Positions 1,747 through 32,555 of a stretch of DNA of 32,555 nucleotides are shown here, piece after piece. A model generated the notes under the pieces. The model had not been told where the DNA came from and made no database searches. It saw nothing but the letters and a program-made list of their open reading frames with translations. Every line of letters starts with the position of its first letter. Position 1 is the stretch's first letter. A program made the translations under genes and the position numbers. This DNA is from Promethearchaeota archaeon (GTDB lineage: Archaea > Asgardarchaeota > Lokiarchaeia > Sigynarchaeales > SOKP01). Where the stretch lies: contig JAUXAJ010000021.1 of assembly GCA_030620005.1 (NCBI GenBank), positions 1-32,555 of the forward strand, read 5' to 3'.

Positions 1747-2075
1747 TCAGAATAGTGAACCAATTCCAGTAAATTCGCAGCAATACCGAATTTAATACCA
1801 GTAAGTTCTTCTTCCTCTTCTTTCTTATCTTCTTCTTTCTTTGCTGCTGTCGGTGCGGCGGCGCTTCCAGCAGTAACGGGTGCGGCCATTACAGGACCAG
1901 CGCTAGCAGATTTTATTATGTCATCAATATCCTTTTCTTTTAACCCAGCAACTAATTTAGTTATCTGGGATTTATCTGCTTCAACCCCAGCAGCTTTCAA
2001 AATCCTTTCGATCGCTGCTGCCGTGACATTTTTGCTTGCTTTATGTAATAATAAAGCCGCGTAAATCGATTCCAT
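1747..2075 (-). CDS. rpl12: Ribosomal stalk protein P1 (aL12), gene interrupted by a BHB intron
   Basis: Archaeal stalk protein P1, present in several copies bound to P0 and recruiting translational GTPases through its C-terminal tail. The N-terminal dimerisation domain (MESIYAALLLHKASK, residues 1-65), an Ala/Pro hinge and an acidic Lys/Glu linker are all visible. Read straight through, the gene gives 113 residues ending in the unrelated sequence NLLELVHYSEILL (stop at 1734-1736). Removing 32 nt at 1764-1795 joins exon 1 (2075-1796, 280 nt) to exon 2 (1763-1747, 17 nt), a total of 99 codons. The result is a 98-residue protein ending EEELTGIGSLF, the same tail as P0 upstream. The intron lies in codon 94, phase 1. 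Splicing is inferred from the RNA fold and the restored tail. A chance indel is the alternative but would not explain the complete BHB. Confidence 0.93.
1764..1795 (-). other. Predicted 32-nt BHB intron in the P1 pre-mRNA
   Basis: Read 5' to 3' on the minus strand, the elements are: outer helix GAA(C)UUA (1808-1802) with UGGUUC (1762-1757), with one bulged C and two G.U pairs; central helix CUGG (1801-1798) with CUGG (1769-1766), forming C-G, U.G, G.U, G-C; 5' bulge UAU (1797-1795); perfect 8-bp inner helix UAAAUUCG (1794-1787) with CGAAUUUA (1777-1770); 9-nt loop GUAUUGCUG; 3' bulge AAU (1765-1763). Cutting UA|U and AA|U removes exactly 32 nt and restores the frame. The layout matches the strict hBHBh' substrate of archaeal tRNA-splicing endonuclease. 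The fold is seen in the sequence; splicing itself is inferred. Confidence 0.88.
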
Positions 2076-3873: not shown

Positions 3874-4404
3874 TCATTCCTCCTTTATAACATCGTCGTA
3901 TTCGCCCTCGTCAATGCGTTTTTGGATCAAGCGCGGGTCTTCACCCTCGACCAAAACGCCAATCGATAAAGCCGTTCCCAATACTGTTTTTACTGCTTTC
4001 TTAAAAGTCTTAGCAAGAAAAATATCTCTTTTAGCTCGAGCAACTTCTTGAATTTGTTCAAGCGTGAGATCTCCAATTTTTTCTTCTGATCGATTTGCCG
4101 AGCCTTTTTCAACTCCCGTTTCCTTCAATAATAAAGAAGCCGTACTTGGCGTTTCTACGAAAATCTCAAATTGTTTTGTTTCAGGATCGCACTCTATACG
4201 GACTGGTACAGTTAACCCTTTAAAAATCATTGTCTTTTCATTGACTACATCGACAACATCTTTAATATTTATTCCGGTTGGCCCTTAAGCCAAGATAGGC
4301 TCATACTTACAGCCAAGCTCTACAGCCGGACCAATCGGGGGGCCTCCTGAGGCAGAATCTCCAGTCACCATTGCACGAACAACTATTTTGCCTTTATTGC
4401 TCAT
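3874..4404 (-). CDS. rpl11: Ribosomal protein uL11, gene interrupted by a BHB intron
   Basis: uL11 binds the GTPase-associated region of 23S rRNA beside P0 and helps elongation factors act. The ATG at 4404 starts MSNKGKIVVRAMVTGDSASGG, followed by the conserved loop GPPIGPA. The reading then enters a non-homologous ELGCKYEPILA and an in-frame TAA at 4285-4287, after 39 codons. The rest of uL11 continues in the same frame directly after that stop (GPTGINIKDVVDVVNEKT, FKGLTVPV, then the C-terminal domain to DDVIKEE). Removing 36 nt (4286-4321) joins exon 1 (4404-4322, 83 nt) to exon 2 (4285-3874, 412 nt). This gives 164 residues, normal for archaeal uL11, with GPAVGPTGIN restored. The intron splits codon 28 after its second base. 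Starting at the internal ATG at 4230 would lose most of the N-terminal domain and is unlikely. First gene of the stalk operon. Confidence 0.94.
4286..4321 (-). other. Predicted 36-nt BHB intron in the uL11 pre-mRNA
   Basis: Read 5' to 3' on the minus strand, the elements are: outer helix UUGGUCC (4334-4328) with GGGCCAA (4284-4278), 7 bp with one U.G; central helix GGCU (4327-4324) with GGCU (4291-4288), forming G.U, G-C, C-G, U.G; 5' bulge GUA (4323-4321); inner helix GAG/CUU, then a 3x3 internal loop, then GGCU (4314-4311) with AGCC (4301-4298); 9-nt loop GUAAGUAUG; 3' bulge UAA (4287-4285), which is also the in-frame stop. Cutting GU|A and UA|A removes 36 nt and reads Gly-Pro-Ala-Val-Gly-Pro-Thr-Gly across the junction. 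This is a canonical endonuclease substrate; splicing is inferred. Confidence 0.91.
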
Positions 4405-4907: not shown

Positions 4908-5582
4908 TTATTTTTTTTCTAACACCACTTTATTTTTGAGAGTACCGATTTTTTCCACGGTTGCTTCAATTAAATCTCCCGGCATGATTGGACCTACTCC
5001 GCTTGGAGTACCTGTTGCGACAATATCTCCGGGATCAAGTGTTAGATATGTAGAAAGATATTCCAATATTTCTGGAACTTTAAAAATCATGTGTTTTGTA
5101 TTTGAAGATTGTTTGGTTTGGCCATTTAGTTTTAATTCAATTTTTAAATCGTGAGGGTCTCCAATTTCCCCATGAGGAACTATTTTTGGGCCTATTGCAC
5201 CAAAAGTATCAAAATTTTTACTCCTGTACCAAGGTAAATTCATATCTCTATCTCGTTTTTGTAAGATTCTTGCAGTCACGTCCAAAAAAACAGTGTATCC
5301 TAAGATGTAATTGTAAGCTTCCTTGGCTTTAATGTGCTTGCATTTTTCACCTACAATGAAAGCTAATTCTACTTCGTAATCGACTCTATCATGTTCTTGA
5401 CTTTCATATAAAATTCTTGGATACACAACGGGTTCATTATTTTGTATCAAGCAATTAACTGTTTTTCCAAAAAAGATGGGCTCTTTAGGTACTTGAGCGT
5501 TCATTTCTTTTGCGTGATCTAAATAATTACGACCTAAACAAATTATTTTGGTAGGGTTTATTTCAACATTTCCAATTTTCAC
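4908..5582 (-). CDS. Fumarylacetoacetate hydrolase family protein, copy 2
   Basis: Member of the FAH fold family, whose members are Mg-dependent acylpyruvate/fumarylpyruvate hydrolases, oxaloacetate tautomerases or decarboxylases. At 224 residues it is the short single-domain form. Seen: KIICLGRNYLDHAKEM at the N-terminus, the metal-binding DYEVELAF motif (residues 68-75, Glu-x-Glu), LDVTAR with the third metal ligand near residue 100, the RSKNFDTFGAIGP substrate loop, and the C-terminal PGDIVATGTPSGVGP glycine loop. It lies 9 nt downstream of a paralogue with roughly 60% identity by eye. The two form a tandem duplicate and probably one transcript. The substrate cannot be told from the sequence. 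Confidence 0.9.
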   Translation of the reverse strand: MKIGNVEINPTKIICLGRNYLDHAKEMNAQVPKEPIFFGKTVNCLIQNNEPVVYPRILYESQEHDRVDYEVELAFIVGEKCKHIKAKEAYNYILGYTVFLDVTARILQKRDRDMNLPWYRSKNFDTFGAIGPKIVPHGEIGDPHDLKIELKLNGQTKQSSNTKHMIFKVPEILEYLSTYLTLDPGDIVATGTPSGVGPIMPGDLIEATVEKIGTLKNKVVLEKK

Positions 5583-5591
5583 GACTACAGA

Positions 5592-6269
5592 TTAATCTCC
5601 TTCTAACACGACTTCATTTGTAAGAGTGCCAATTTTCTCGATAATAGCTTCAATTAAATCTCCTGGTTTTACAGGACCAATCCCTGATGGTGTGCCAGTG
5701 GCCACAATGTCGCCTGGCTCCATTGTAAACAATTTAGTGATGTATTCAACGAGTTCAGGGACTTTGAATAGTAGGTGTTTAGTATTTGATGATTGTTTTA
5801 CTTCGCCGTTTAGCTTTGATTCAATCTTGAGATCGTGAGGGGCTCCAATCTCTTCATGAAGAACTATCTTAGGTCCTATTGGTCCAAAAGTGTCGAGAGA
5901 TTTTGAACGGAACCAAGGCATTTTTGACACGATGTCTTTAGTTTGCATTTTTCGTGCAGTAACATCGTTAAAGACCGTGTATCCCAAAATGTGCTCGTAA
6001 GCTTCATTAGCCAGCACATCCTTACATTTATCCTTGATAATAAAAGCAAGCTCTACCTCGTAATCAACGCGGTTCAATCTTCTATTGTTGTATAATAATT
6101 TTGGATAAATAATTGGTTCTCCATCTGTAATAAGACAATTTAAGGTCTTCGGGAAAAGCACGGGCTCTTTTGGAACGGGCAATTTCGTTTCGTTAATATG
6201 GTCCATGTAATTCGTGCCAACGCAAATAATTTTTGTAGGACTAATTTTAATATCTCCAATTTTAATCAA
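5592..6269 (-). CDS. Fumarylacetoacetate hydrolase family protein, copy 1
   Basis: First gene of the tandem FAH pair (225 residues). It keeps the same catalytic features: NYMDHINE, the DYEVELAF metal motif near residues 69-76, NDVTAR with the Asp ligand, WFRSKSLDTFGPIGP and PGDIVATGTPSGIGP. The lid region between residues 30 and 65 and the helix after DVTAR (MQTKDIVSKMPW here, LQKRDRDMNLPW in the other copy) differ most. This suggests the copies may differ in substrate, or form a hetero-oligomer. The divergent intergenic region of about 195 bp to the thiW-like gene should hold both promoters. Confidence 0.9.
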   Translation of the reverse strand: MIKIGDIKISPTKIICVGTNYMDHINETKLPVPKEPVLFPKTLNCLITDGEPIIYPKLLYNNRRLNRVDYEVELAFIIKDKCKDVLANEAYEHILGYTVFNDVTARKMQTKDIVSKMPWFRSKSLDTFGPIGPKIVLHEEIGAPHDLKIESKLNGEVKQSSNTKHLLFKVPELVEYITKLFTMEPGDIVATGTPSGIGPVKPGDLIEAIIEKIGTLTNEVVLEGD

Positions 6270-12960: not shown

Positions 12961-13455
12961 ATGATCATATTCAATTCATCACCTTTAATCCATTTAACCA
13001 AAATTGGAAAATTAGAGTACTATTTAAATATCATCGATTTTATTATTATTCCTCACGAGGTATATACTGAAGTAATTGAAGAAGGAATAAAAGCAGGTTT
13101 TTCTGACGCAATTCTTTTACAAAACTATTATATTAATAAAAAGATTAAGAAAAAAAACATAACGCAAGAAGATCCAATTTTGAAAGACTATCTTCATCCA
13201 GGAGAATATGAATCAATTTTATTAGCAAAACAATTGAATGGTCTACTAGTAATGGATGATAAAAAAGGTCGATCAGTAGCAGAACAAAAAGGTCTTGAAG
13301 TATTAACTACAGCTGATATACTCCTGTTATTATGTAAGGAGAAAGAGATTGAATATGGTTTGTTCAAAACAAATTTAGGAAAATACTCTGCGAATGGATG
13401 GTTATCACCAGTTATTCATGACAAGTACTTAAAAGAGGGAAAAAAATATGAGTGA
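12961..13455 (+). CDS. PIN-domain toxin, DUF3368-like
   Basis: Probable ribonuclease toxin of a type II toxin-antitoxin pair, 164 residues. MIIFNSSPLIHLTKIGKLEYY matches the DUF3368 N-terminus, with Asn in place of the first acidic residue (Asp is usual in PIN proteins). IIIPHEVYTEVIEEG supplies a conserved Glu near residue 40. HPGEYESILLAKQLNGLLVMDDKKGRSVAEQKGLEVLTTADIL (residues about 80-122) contains the central Glu and the Asp-Asp pair of the active site. The gene overlaps the next one by 8 nt. Toxin-first order is seen in this class. Its promoter sits inside a decayed gene, consistent with recent acquisition. Confidence 0.85.
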   Translation: MIIFNSSPLIHLTKIGKLEYYLNIIDFIIIPHEVYTEVIEEGIKAGFSDAILLQNYYINKKIKKKNITQEDPILKDYLHPGEYESILLAKQLNGLLVMDDKKGRSVAEQKGLEVLTTADILLLLCKEKEIEYGLFKTNLGKYSANGWLSPVIHDKYLKEGKKYE

Positions 13456-13813
13456 AAGAGTGTCTATAGTGATACCAGTAGATTTAAATGAAGAAATAGA
13501 AAAAATTCAGAAAATATTACAAATGGACAAGAGTTCCACAATTCGCCATTTAATTTCCAAATCCATTAAGGAAATGAAAATAGAAATAGCTTTGAACGAA
13601 TACAAAAAAGAAAAAGTTTCTTTTGGTAAAGCATCTGAAATTGCGGGAGTTAATCTTTGGGAATTTATTGATATCTGCCACCAACATAAAATTGAATTAA
13701 ATTTAACGGAAGATGATGTGGATCATGGAATTAAAACAATCATGGAATTAGATCTCGTAAAATATAAACAGAAAATGCAAAAATCCTTGGAATCTTCAAA
13801 AAAAAATAAATAA
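13448..13813 (+). CDS. Antitoxin, ribbon-helix-helix plus UPF0175-like
   Basis: Partner of the PIN toxin, 121 residues. Residues 1-40 (MSERVSIVIPVDLNEEIEKI, then KSSTIRHLISKSIKEM) form a ribbon-helix-helix DNA-binding module. Residues about 45-80 (ALNEYKKEKVSFGKASEIAGVNLWEFIDICHQHKIELN) match the UPF0175 helix-turn-helix pattern found next to DUF3368 toxins. The Lys-rich C-terminus may wrap the toxin. The 8-nt overlap with the toxin gene implies coupled translation. By analogy with the family the complex probably represses its own promoter; no clear operator dyad was identified. Confidence 0.85.
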   Translation: MSERVSIVIPVDLNEEIEKIQKILQMDKSSTIRHLISKSIKEMKIEIALNEYKKEKVSFGKASEIAGVNLWEFIDICHQHKIELNLTEDDVDHGIKTIMELDLVKYKQKMQKSLESSKKNK

Positions 13814-26284: not shown

Positions 26285-26785
26285 ATAACGAAAAAAATTG
26301 CCGGATTTGCCTATATATTGGGTGACGACATCAGCACAGACGACATTGTACCAAGTCATACATTAACCATGAGAGATCCTCATGAAATGGCAAAATGCAC
26401 GCTTGAATTTATTGACCCTGATTTCGTAAAGAATATTGAACGAAGCAATATCATGGTCGCTGGAGAAAATTTTGGAACGGGCAGCTCACGCGAGGAAGCT
26501 GTTAACGTTTTTAAAACGCTTGGAATTAAGGTAATAATAGCTAAGTCTTTCGCAAGAATTTATTTTCGTAACTTAATTAACGTGGGGATACCCGGAATAA
26601 CTTTGGATTGGAACGAAAGTATGATTTCAAAAGGCGACAATTTAGAAATATCCCTCATGGAAGGAACGATTTTAAACACAACTAAAGATGAAAAAATAAT
26701 ATTTACGAGGTTACCAAACTTTTTAGCTAACATCTTAGAAGAAGGTGGCATCTTAAATTTATTAAAAAAAAGTTTAGCAAAATAA
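26285..26785 (+). CDS. leuD: 3-isopropylmalate/homoaconitate dehydratase, small subunit (non-AUG start)
   Basis: Swivelling small subunit partner of the preceding gene. The conserved fold begins KIAGFAYILGDDISTDDIVPS, then VAGENFGTGSSREEAVNVFKTLGIKVIIAKSFARIYFRN (GSSRE substrate loop). This start requires reading from immediately after the large-subunit stop. The first codons are ATA ACG AAA AAA ATT, with GGAGG (26272-26276) 8 nt before ATA, and no ATG, GTG or TTG is available before the conserved beta strand. A TTG at 26318 would delete residues needed for the fold. I therefore choose ATA at 26285, giving 166 residues; ATT at 26297 is an alternative. The specificity loop (HTLTMRD) is not clearly LeuD or homoaconitase type. 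Confidence 0.85.
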   Translation: MTKKIAGFAYILGDDISTDDIVPSHTLTMRDPHEMAKCTLEFIDPDFVKNIERSNIMVAGENFGTGSSREEAVNVFKTLGIKVIIAKSFARIYFRNLINVGIPGITLDWNESMISKGDNLEISLMEGTILNTTKDEKIIFTRLPNFLANILEEGGILNLLKKSLAK

Positions 26786-31741: not shown

Positions 31742-32555
31742 CTACGAGTTCGCACCCACTTTCGTGGCGGGTTTGACTGTATGTCGTAGAAAACCGTTCC
31801 ACATTTGCAAGAACAGTTCCTCGTTCATGAAAAATTGATGCGATAGGAACTCATATTCTCCGAACTCTTTCATTTTCAAGAACTTGATCATGATATTCAC
31901 GGCAGAGTTCAGATCTCGGTCAATCTGATTTCCACAGTCGCACTTAATAAATCTCTCGTAGATGGGTCTTTTTGAGAGTTTTCCACACTTACAACACGCT
32001 TTCGTTGTCTTTTCCTCGCCAATTCTTATTACTCTCTTACCCAACCTTGCGGCTTTATAGGTCAAGAACTGAGCAAATCGAGACATGAAACCCGTGTTCT
32101 GAACGGAATGGTTCAACGTTTTTTGAGCCTTGGTTTTTCTTGCGTTCCCTGTTCCTTTCTTCTTCTTGGCCATTTCTTTAACGGCCAAATCTCCGATGAT
32201 GAGCGTGTTCGCCTTGGTGTTCTCTACGATTTGTTTTGAAAGCCAATGTTGGTAATCCTTAAGTTGATGAGCTCGTTTTCGAATCATCTTTTTCATTTTC
32301 GCATCAAGCCATTTCCACCTCTTGCTTTTCTTCTTGCAATGGTCTCGTTTTGACTGCACTTCTTCGATCTTCTTTTTCCAATACAGGTCTGCCCGTTTGT
32401 GCTTGAATGAAACGAACTTTCCGTGAATGTTCACACCAGCAGTTTTTGAAACTCCCAAGTCAAATGCTTGGTATAGCTCATTATCATTGTAATCGGGAGC
32501 GTCAATCTCGTACGTGAACGAGAGAAACCATCGGTCTTGCGAATCGCGAAAGATC
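31742..32555 (-). CDS. tnpB: TnpB (IS200/IS605 family), 5' end beyond the window
   Basis: RNA-guided nuclease associated with IS200/IS605 elements, partial. The frame stays open to the window edge (IFRDSQDRWFLSFTYEID, then YQAFDLGVSKTAGV), so the N-terminus lies outside. The RuvC-like residues are visible: Asp in AFDLGVSK, Glu in IRIGEEKTT and Asp in QIDRDLNSAVNIM. A zinc-finger lies between them (CCKCGKL and FIKCDCGN). The helical insert KKKIEEVQSKRDHCKKKSKRWKW is typical. The C-terminal tail after the last Asp is about 50 residues. Catalytic residues in the visible part are complete, so it may be active. No TnpA is seen on this side. Confidence 0.93.
   Translation of the reverse strand, partial: IFRDSQDRWFLSFTYEIDAPDYNDNELYQAFDLGVSKTAGVNIHGKFVSFKHKRADLYWKKKIEEVQSKRDHCKKKSKRWKWLDAKMKKMIRKRAHQLKDYQHWLSKQIVENTKANTLIIGDLAVKEMAKKKKGTGNARKTKAQKTLNHSVQNTGFMSRFAQFLTYKAARLGKRVIRIGEEKTTKACCKCGKLSKRPIYERFIKCDCGNQIDRDLNSAVNIMIKFLKMKEFGEYEFLSHQFFMNEELFLQMWNGFLRHTVKPATKVGANS

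Follow-up and report, generated by a model that had tools for sequence, protein, structure and literature searches.

The gene for ribosomal protein uL11 in the 32,555-nt stretch of Promethearchaeota archaeon DNA analyzed here (contig JAUXAJ010000021.1, hereafter the window) is interrupted by a 36-nt insert at positions 4321-4286 of the minus strand. Judging from its sequence, this insert is very probably a bulge-helix-bulge (BHB) intron of the uL11 pre-mRNA, cut out by EndA and with its exons joined by RtcB. EndA, the tRNA-splicing endonuclease, would cut each 3-nt bulge between its second and third bases, and RtcB would ligate the uL11 exons; we infer that both reactions take place in the cell. 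A preliminary description of the window had proposed a BHB intron at this place, and the proposal is supported by the restored protein, the geometry of the fold, the recurrence of similar inserts, covariation and the constrained exon codons. What goes beyond that description is the clade-wide commonness of the inserts, a second predicted case in the window (in the P1 gene), their presence in more genes and their apparently fast turnover together with flanking exon DNA.

The interrupted uL11 and P1 genes of the window

The uL11 gene lies on the minus strand, with an ATG at 4404 and a stop at 3874. Its frame reads MSNKGKIVVRAMVTGDSASGGPPIGPAV-ELGCKYEPILA*-GPTGINIKDVV..., passing from GGPPIGPAV into ELGCKYEPILA and a stop codon and resuming in the same frame at GPTGINIKDVV; this reading of the minus-strand frame confirmed that uL11 is broken by an insert ending in UAA, as had been claimed. 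The in-frame UAA is formed at the 3′ border of the insert, its last A belonging to exon 2. Taking out the 36 nt (GU|A ... UA|A) leaves exon 1 at 4322..4404 (ATG at 4404-4402) and exon 2, to the stop, at 3874..4285, both on the minus strand, and yields an uninterrupted 164-aa protein containing GPAVGPTGIN. The junction of 4322 with 4285 that the preliminary description had derived from cuts between bulge positions 2 and 3 restores this protein in silico.

The predicted intron (4286..4321, minus strand) occupies site C, GPA[V]GPTG, and its RNA reads A-GAG-CUU-GGCU-GUAAGUAUG-AGCC-UAU-CUU-GGCU-UA. Two 3-nt bulges and a 4-bp helix are found at the exon-intron borders, with helices on both sides (hBHBh′). 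The outer helix of 7 bp is a pairing of the two exons, UUGGUCC (4328..4334) with GGGCCAA (4278..4284), and the central helix is formed by GGCU (4324..4327) and GGCU (4288..4291), all on the minus strand. On the same strand, the 5′ bulge GU|A (4321..4323) would be cut between 4322 and 4321, and the 3′ bulge UA|A (4285..4287) between 4286 and 4285. The inner helix consists of 3 bp beside the bulges, an internal loop, 4 bp and a 9-nt hairpin loop. All elements of the fold that had been described, from the outer helix and GGCU/GGCU to the bulges GUA and UAA and the 9-nt loop, are present.

Folded without constraint, the best structure of the window uL11 sequence is not the BHB, and its inner part differs; this fold is mildly unusual (z −2.0, with 6 of 200 shuffles equally good). 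The BHB-constrained fold has −25.2 kcal/mol compared to a minimum of −26.9, i.e., it lies 1.7 kcal/mol above it. When the letters of the intron were shuffled, a full central helix at a protein-restoring register was obtained in 4.2% of 500 trials. An Rfam search of the window at gathering scores gave 0 matches, group I and group II introns included.

A second predicted intron interrupts the P1 (L12e) gene of the window, also on the minus strand, between exon 1 (1796..2075) and exon 2 (1747..1763), which holds the last codons and TGA. Where relatives end, the window P1 reads on as ELTGIKFGIAANLLELVHYSEILL; with 32 nt (1795-1764) taken out it ends as ELTGIGSLF-stop. The intron (1764..1795) has central CUGG/CUGG and bulges UA|U and AA|U. 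Exactly one of ten product-equal registers has a full central helix, and the same one has an 8-bp inner helix. P1 (L12) is present in 50 of the 52 related loci introduced below, and 48 of them show GIGSLF-stop without a break. The remaining two are L007, which is cut off, and L003, which carries a 30-nt in-frame insert at a place identical to that of the window, with one full register of seven.

Elsewhere in the window, two adjacent FAA-hydrolase paralogues (PF01557) are found at 4908-6269. By eye, a pair of neighboring small ORFs (12961-13813) resembles a PIN-type toxin with its antitoxin, and an ORF at 31742-32554 that runs off the window end resembles IS200/IS605-type TnpB. An aconitase-family small subunit lies at 26318-26785, with its start provisionally called at TTG.

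BHB-type inserts in related Lokiarchaea

The alignment with related uL11 genes suggested in the preliminary description was run on 52 loci, all titled Candidatus Lokiarchaeota or Lokiarchaeia. A few of the protein matches carry other Asgard names, and the window resembles a Lokiarchaeal contig. Of these, 49 extend into the N-terminal half of uL11; L050-L052, in which this half is missing, were excluded from the insert count. Spliced alignment with searched insert sizes of 8-260 nt revealed inserts of like build, one to three per locus, at four sites in one conserved loop in 27 of the 49 loci, a number that is a lower bound, since L023 lacks coverage of sites A and B and L024 of site A, and that comes from kin, so that the counts are not independent. 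The sites are A (GG[S]ASGG, 12 inserts), B (PP[I]GPA, 7), C (occupied in the window, L016 and L017) and D (GPTG[I/N]IKDV, 15). With the window included there are 37 inserts with lengths of 28-37 nt. All of them break the frame, 36 by a frameshift or internal stop and that of the window by the stop at its 3′ border. The uL11 gene of L025 has three inserts within 20 codons, and the exons between them are 21 and 29 nt long.

At the protein-restoring register, which was selected as the best of those giving an identical product (with a shift of 2-3 nt in 6 of 37) and is therefore somewhat favored, the central helix has all four pairs in 33 of the 37 uL11 inserts; the other four, all at site B, have three of four. 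With both borders slid by 1-12 nt, a full central helix was present in at most 5 of 37 inserts, and random exchange of partners (2000 shuffles) gave a mean of 9.1 and a maximum of 17 fully paired inserts. Beside the bulge, site A inserts have no outer-helix pair and site D inserts have 1-2, which makes both relaxed BHB forms. Among 49 inserts folded under the BHB constraint (the 37 of uL11 and 12 others, including 2 of the 5 uS3 site c cases described below), 8 lie more than 2.5 kcal/mol above the folding minimum.

At site A, pair 1 of the helix covaries, being A-U in 6 inserts and U-A in 6, and full pairing was matched by 3 of 2000 within-site shuffles. At site B the observed pairing was matched in 1156 of 2000. 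The central helix of site D hardly varies, too little for a covariation test; covariation is seen in the inner helix. This analysis included 14 of the 15 site D introns, one duplicate being excluded. In the site D structure 93.5% of cells are paired, compared to at most 53.2% when it is slid, and the covariation score together with doubly changed pairs was equalled by 0 of 500 shuffles; further pair types show no excess (9 vs 9.3 in shuffles), and the structure slid by +1 also has 4 doubly changed pairs. The exon codons that take part in the helices are invariant among loci with the uL11 intron in question and vary among loci lacking it (Fisher tests of this contrast ignore relatedness): codon 16 is GGG in 12 of 12 loci with the site A intron vs 4 of 36 empty ones, codon 22 is CCG in 7 of 7 vs 9 of 42 for site B, codon 26 is CCG in 3 of 3 (window included) vs 0 of 47 for site C, and codon 32 is GGC in 15 of 15 vs 6 of 35 for site D.

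Three other explanations of the uL11 insert were weighed against these data. In ribosomal bypassing, known from phage T4 gene 60, ribosomes would hop over the 36 nt and the RNA would not be removed. A short, hairpin-forming insert would suit such a process, as would the central helix of the window, which is a direct repeat, GGCU..GGCU. However, the same codon precedes both ends in only 1 of the 37 inserts, the pairing and covariation bridge exon and intron in the BHB register, and L025 would require three hops within 20 codons; we regard bypassing as very improbable. A broken gene or split protein, with translation stopping at the UAA and restarting at AUG 4230 to produce a uL11 of 118 aa that lacks the N-terminal part, or with the gene simply dead, is if anything harder still to credit. 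Both halves of uL11 are conserved, the gene gives a single match in 73 of the 74 genomes having it in the class of genome G001 (in the exception, G146, it is present as two contig-end pieces), and although the breaks occur in four places, they lie at BHB registers that restore the protein, with the pairing codons fixed. The observation in favor of this explanation is that 44 of 120 listed database relatives are just 118-138 aa long, some of them maybe cut by contig ends. Finally, sequencing or assembly error can be practically dismissed, even though the window and most relatives are metagenome assemblies, since different sequences occur at the same sites, the inserted loci are spread over many assemblies with separate names, and a site D insert is present in G123, a genome of 3.34 Mb in a single contig.

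The survey of other genes was based on forty S10/spc stretches of class genomes compared among themselves. Inserts in uS3 were found in five stretches (L135, L149-L152). Site b lies inside VIGK|GGKR, which we take to be the KH-domain motif of uS3; its four cases have a full central helix that covaries (AGGU..GCUU, UGGU..GCUA, AGGU..GCCU, UGGU..GCCA). The one case at site a has a full central helix as well. At site c (30 nt, FGLE|LPQI; L135, L149-L152) only three of four central pairs are formed in 5 of 5 cases at the registers tried, and these inserts represent either a non-canonical BHB or another kind of insert. One insert was found in uS8, in L147. For the first 20 stretches, 19 split places were listed and five were inspected, the rest having few supporting queries. 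The uS8 case was kept; split places in L134, L137 and L138 were dropped as intergenic-looking, and that in L143 because of a run of N, the sole error-like candidate met. The listing for all 40 stretches required at least 4 supporting loci for splits and at least 6 for in-frame inserts, and weaker cases, including uS8, fall below it. The in-frame differences of 6-19 residues that it shows in genes other than uS3 have the appearance of normal variation in loops.

The rtcB genes of G108 (L170) and G141 (L171) are split by a 29-nt insert inside GGVGY|DINCG, presumably the catalytic motif of RtcB. A full central helix is present in both, and L171 has a 9-bp inner helix. Since rtcB itself has a BHB insert, production of the ligase would need the ligase. 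The rtcB genes of G143 and G149, considered as further split genes, turned out to be cut by contig ends instead. The introns at uL11 site B (L008, L025, L035, L038, L044) and those of rtcB (L170, L171) have similar cores, ACATAA-AGCATA...GCTTT...CAAA, with a score of 29 that was reached in 0 of 1000 shuffles for that pair of introns, uncorrected for the many pairs compared. This likeness is a lead, possibly a trace of intron movement between genes. Among the 41 Lokiarchaeal genomes with a cbf5 match (42 searched), 40 have the gene as an unbroken frame of 337-417 aa, and the 217-aa frame of G141 is near a contig end; no frame break was seen in this gene by the frame-length check, which does not reach stopless in-frame inserts. 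A reference-free scan for BHB and frame joining over 1.36 Mb of G123 gave 298 raw and 113 filtered candidates; the 60 inspected resembled mostly gene boundaries and AT-rich noise, and the known uL11 intron was not among these 60.

Of 83 class genomes, 82 have EndA (PF01974), usually two proteins of ~200 aa, and 75 have RtcB; the EndA and RtcB of the window genome are presumed to match those of its relatives. In the EndA pairs of G001, G003, G123 and G137 one protein keeps the expected His and Lys, to which we assign catalytic roles, and the other is without the His. By sequence, one member of each of these pairs resembles a catalytic and the other a structural subunit. The G001 protein with His and Lys aligned best to solved chains 3p1z and 3ajv, which we take to be Aeropyrum EndA, and the one without His to 1a79, presumably Methanocaldococcus EndA; this pair resembles (αβ)2 enzymes. 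ARAGORN reported 13 tRNAs in 1.36 Mb of G123, 12 of them with an intron, some surely spurious. As stated in the accessible text of PMC6379350, (αβ)2 EndA can remove introns with relaxed BHB. A title cited in the accessible part of PMC12397907 reports a heterotetramer with constrained specificity, which counts against a simple rule.

Turnover of inserts and possible exchange of flanking exon tracts

A uL11 match was obtained in 74 of the 83 genomes of the class. None was found in the remaining nine (G090, G101, G111, G124, G141, G144, G149, G155 and G159), which may be incomplete or may have a gene too heavily interrupted to score. A phylum search, of whose matches a part is listed, found uL11 in 209 of 227 genomes. 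Twenty distant class genomes (at most 56% identity) have open uL11 frames of 162-209 aa, except for the contig-end-cut G094, in a comparison to which stopless in-frame inserts are invisible. The short uL11 frames of G036, G094 and G167 were rejected as interrupted genes since contig-end positions explain them. With open frames in distant genomes, the insert trait was observed only within a single clade of closely related Lokiarchaea.

A quick tree was built from the C-terminal part of uL11, L1 and L10 (49 rows, i.e., 48 loci and the window, with L046 absent). The minimum numbers of changes on this tree are 10 for site A, 6 for B, 3 for C and 14 for D. Six rows that the midpoint root separates from the others (L020, L022, L030, L042, L043, L045) have no uL11 inserts. 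Sister species differ in their introns: A and D in L003 vs B in L006, A in L011 vs D in L013, and C in L016/L017 vs D in L024. Gain and loss of the inserts apparently proceed fast among relatives. The site D introns are alignable across the clade. A covariance model of site D applied with strict filters to the 83 genomes gave 14 strong hits and G109 (E 0.003), all in uL11; this is expected by construction, the strong hits being the training loci or their duplicate. Eight of the 12 weaker hits were inspected with nothing convincing, and no site outside uL11 was found with this model. Since the site D intron was not found elsewhere, any spread would be to the same site, as in homing.

Sixteen independent closest pairs were compared, after removal of pairs with too few codons or with far divergence above 0.45. 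In the 10 pairs with different intron sets third-position divergence is 0.62 in codons 17-36 vs 0.20 in codons 46-145, and in the 6 pairs with equal sets it is 0.17 in both regions (one-sided Mann-Whitney p 0.00025 for different-set vs equal-set pairs). Between sisters with unlike introns, the exon sequence beside the sites tends to diverge strongly, with near identity in the remainder of the gene: 17 of 72 nt are changed between L003 and L006 in codons 14-37, as against 4 of 114 in codons 38-75. L011 and L049 have an identical 32-nt site A intron, and none of 8 third positions near it differs between them, yet 48 of 100 farther third positions do. In uS8, L147, which has the intron, and its near relative L137, which has none, differ strongly to ~40 nt past the intron and then at ~1 in 30.

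Close pairs in which neither member has the intron also show more third-position divergence near the site than far from it: 0.39 compared to 0.12 for site A, 0.39 to 0.14 for B and 0.22 to 0.13 for D. Local divergence is likewise seen in the intronless pair L007/L047. In site A pairs where one member has the intron the values are 0.68 near and 0.13 far, which exceeds the excess of intronless pairs; L025/L035, one intron apart, show little local excess (0.30 vs 0.18). The co-conversion pattern is an association in relatives, with some excess in intronless pairs, and the window has no close relative for comparison.

Our own reading of these patterns is that short exon tracts may be exchanged between lineages with the intron riding along. 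The mini-introns would spread with flanking exon DNA by recombination, in a co-conversion-like manner, rather than by copying themselves into new genes. We tentatively put forward, as a proposal with a little less than an even chance of being right, that mobile BHB mini-introns of 28-37 nt jump between species into the most conserved glycine-rich motifs of essential genes for translation and RNA splicing. The vehicle would be homologous exchange of flanking exons, a kind of homing by elements that carry no gene and are perhaps driven in trans. One ribosomal protein would then be made from genes interrupted in different ways in sister species, and some species would have to splice the mRNA of their own ligase. 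It is rather unlikely, in our judgment, that vertical inheritance from an intron-rich ancestor followed only by loss explains the data, the codon differences then being due to pairing selection or to a fast 5′ part of the gene. Such a history would agree with the alignability of site D introns, with the restriction of the site D model to uL11 and with the local excess in pairs without a given intron and in L007/L047. It does not sit well with the contrast between different-set and equal-set pairs, with the identical site A intron of L011 and L049 amid their farther differences, or with L003 and L006, in which most near-site codons differ, beyond pairing needs. Constraint can account for low divergence where both members have the intron, not for high divergence where one has it.

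If the uL11 mRNA is spliced, ribosome synthesis in some Asgard archaea would depend on mRNA splicing. In this group, usually placed nearest to eukaryotes, both RtcB and core ribosomal proteins would then rely on protein enzymes that splice their mRNAs. Gain and loss of mRNA introns become testable in this system, as does the question of whether splicing limits ribosome production. Because of such inserts, gene calls for uL11, uS3, P1 and rtcB may be wrong, as may be seen in the short uL11 relatives listed above.

Relation to known BHB introns

In its accessible text, PMC2738675 gives lengths of 16-44 bp for cbf5 introns, describes splicing of other archaeal pre-mRNAs as unconfirmed and mentions predicted putative introns, including 12-bp inserts from an archaeal virus. 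It also suggests that homing introns may have given rise to those of cbf5 by deletion, and the exon tracts seen in Lokiarchaea agree with this idea. A 2020 study, in the part available, names cbf5 as the one BHB intron in mRNA besides its own 5′-UTR case (PMC7714728). The statement of the preliminary description that cbf5 is the well-known protein-gene case, with none known to it for ribosomal proteins, held in the accessible portions of this open-access literature (PMC2738675, PMC7714728), in which cbf5 is the confirmed coding-region example. At the level of titles and abstract beginnings, searches of open-access literature (as distinct from subscription journals and preprints) gave no report of BHB introns in ribosomal protein genes or Asgard mRNAs. 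The available parts of PMC12397907 and PMC6379350 make no mention of Asgard, Lokiarchaeo- or cbf5, that of PMC13149111 none of cbf5 or ribosomal protein, and that of PMC3655853 has nothing on mRNA introns.

The crenarchaeal cbf5 intron is, like the uL11 insert, a short coding-region BHB intron at a functionally vital place, and its hosts have a hetero-oligomeric EndA, to which the Lokiarchaeal case can be likened (accessible text of PMC2738675; Watanabe 2002 therein). Unlike the cbf5 family, the Lokiarchaeal introns occur in uL11, P1, uS3, uS8 and rtcB and in another phylum, and a single uL11 gene can hold as many as three of them; the four uL11 sites share one loop, and their occupancy turns over between sisters. 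In the 5′ UTR BHB intron of Haloferax HVO_1309, EndA cuts mRNA at the BHB, as is predicted for uL11; that intron lies in an untranslated region, whereas the uL11 coding frame depends on removal (PMC7714728, in the part available). Archaeal rRNA introns with homing endonuclease genes share BHB-type borders and apparent mobility with flanks (PMC2738675, accessible text), but the Lokiarchaeal introns of 28-37 nt are too short for an endonuclease frame and their hosts are protein-gene mRNAs. Archaeal tRNA introns with relaxed BHB share the size, the 4-bp central helix, the 3-nt bulges and the relaxed outer helices seen at sites A and D (PMC6379350, in its accessible part); unlike them, the Lokiarchaeal mini-introns are not in tRNA.
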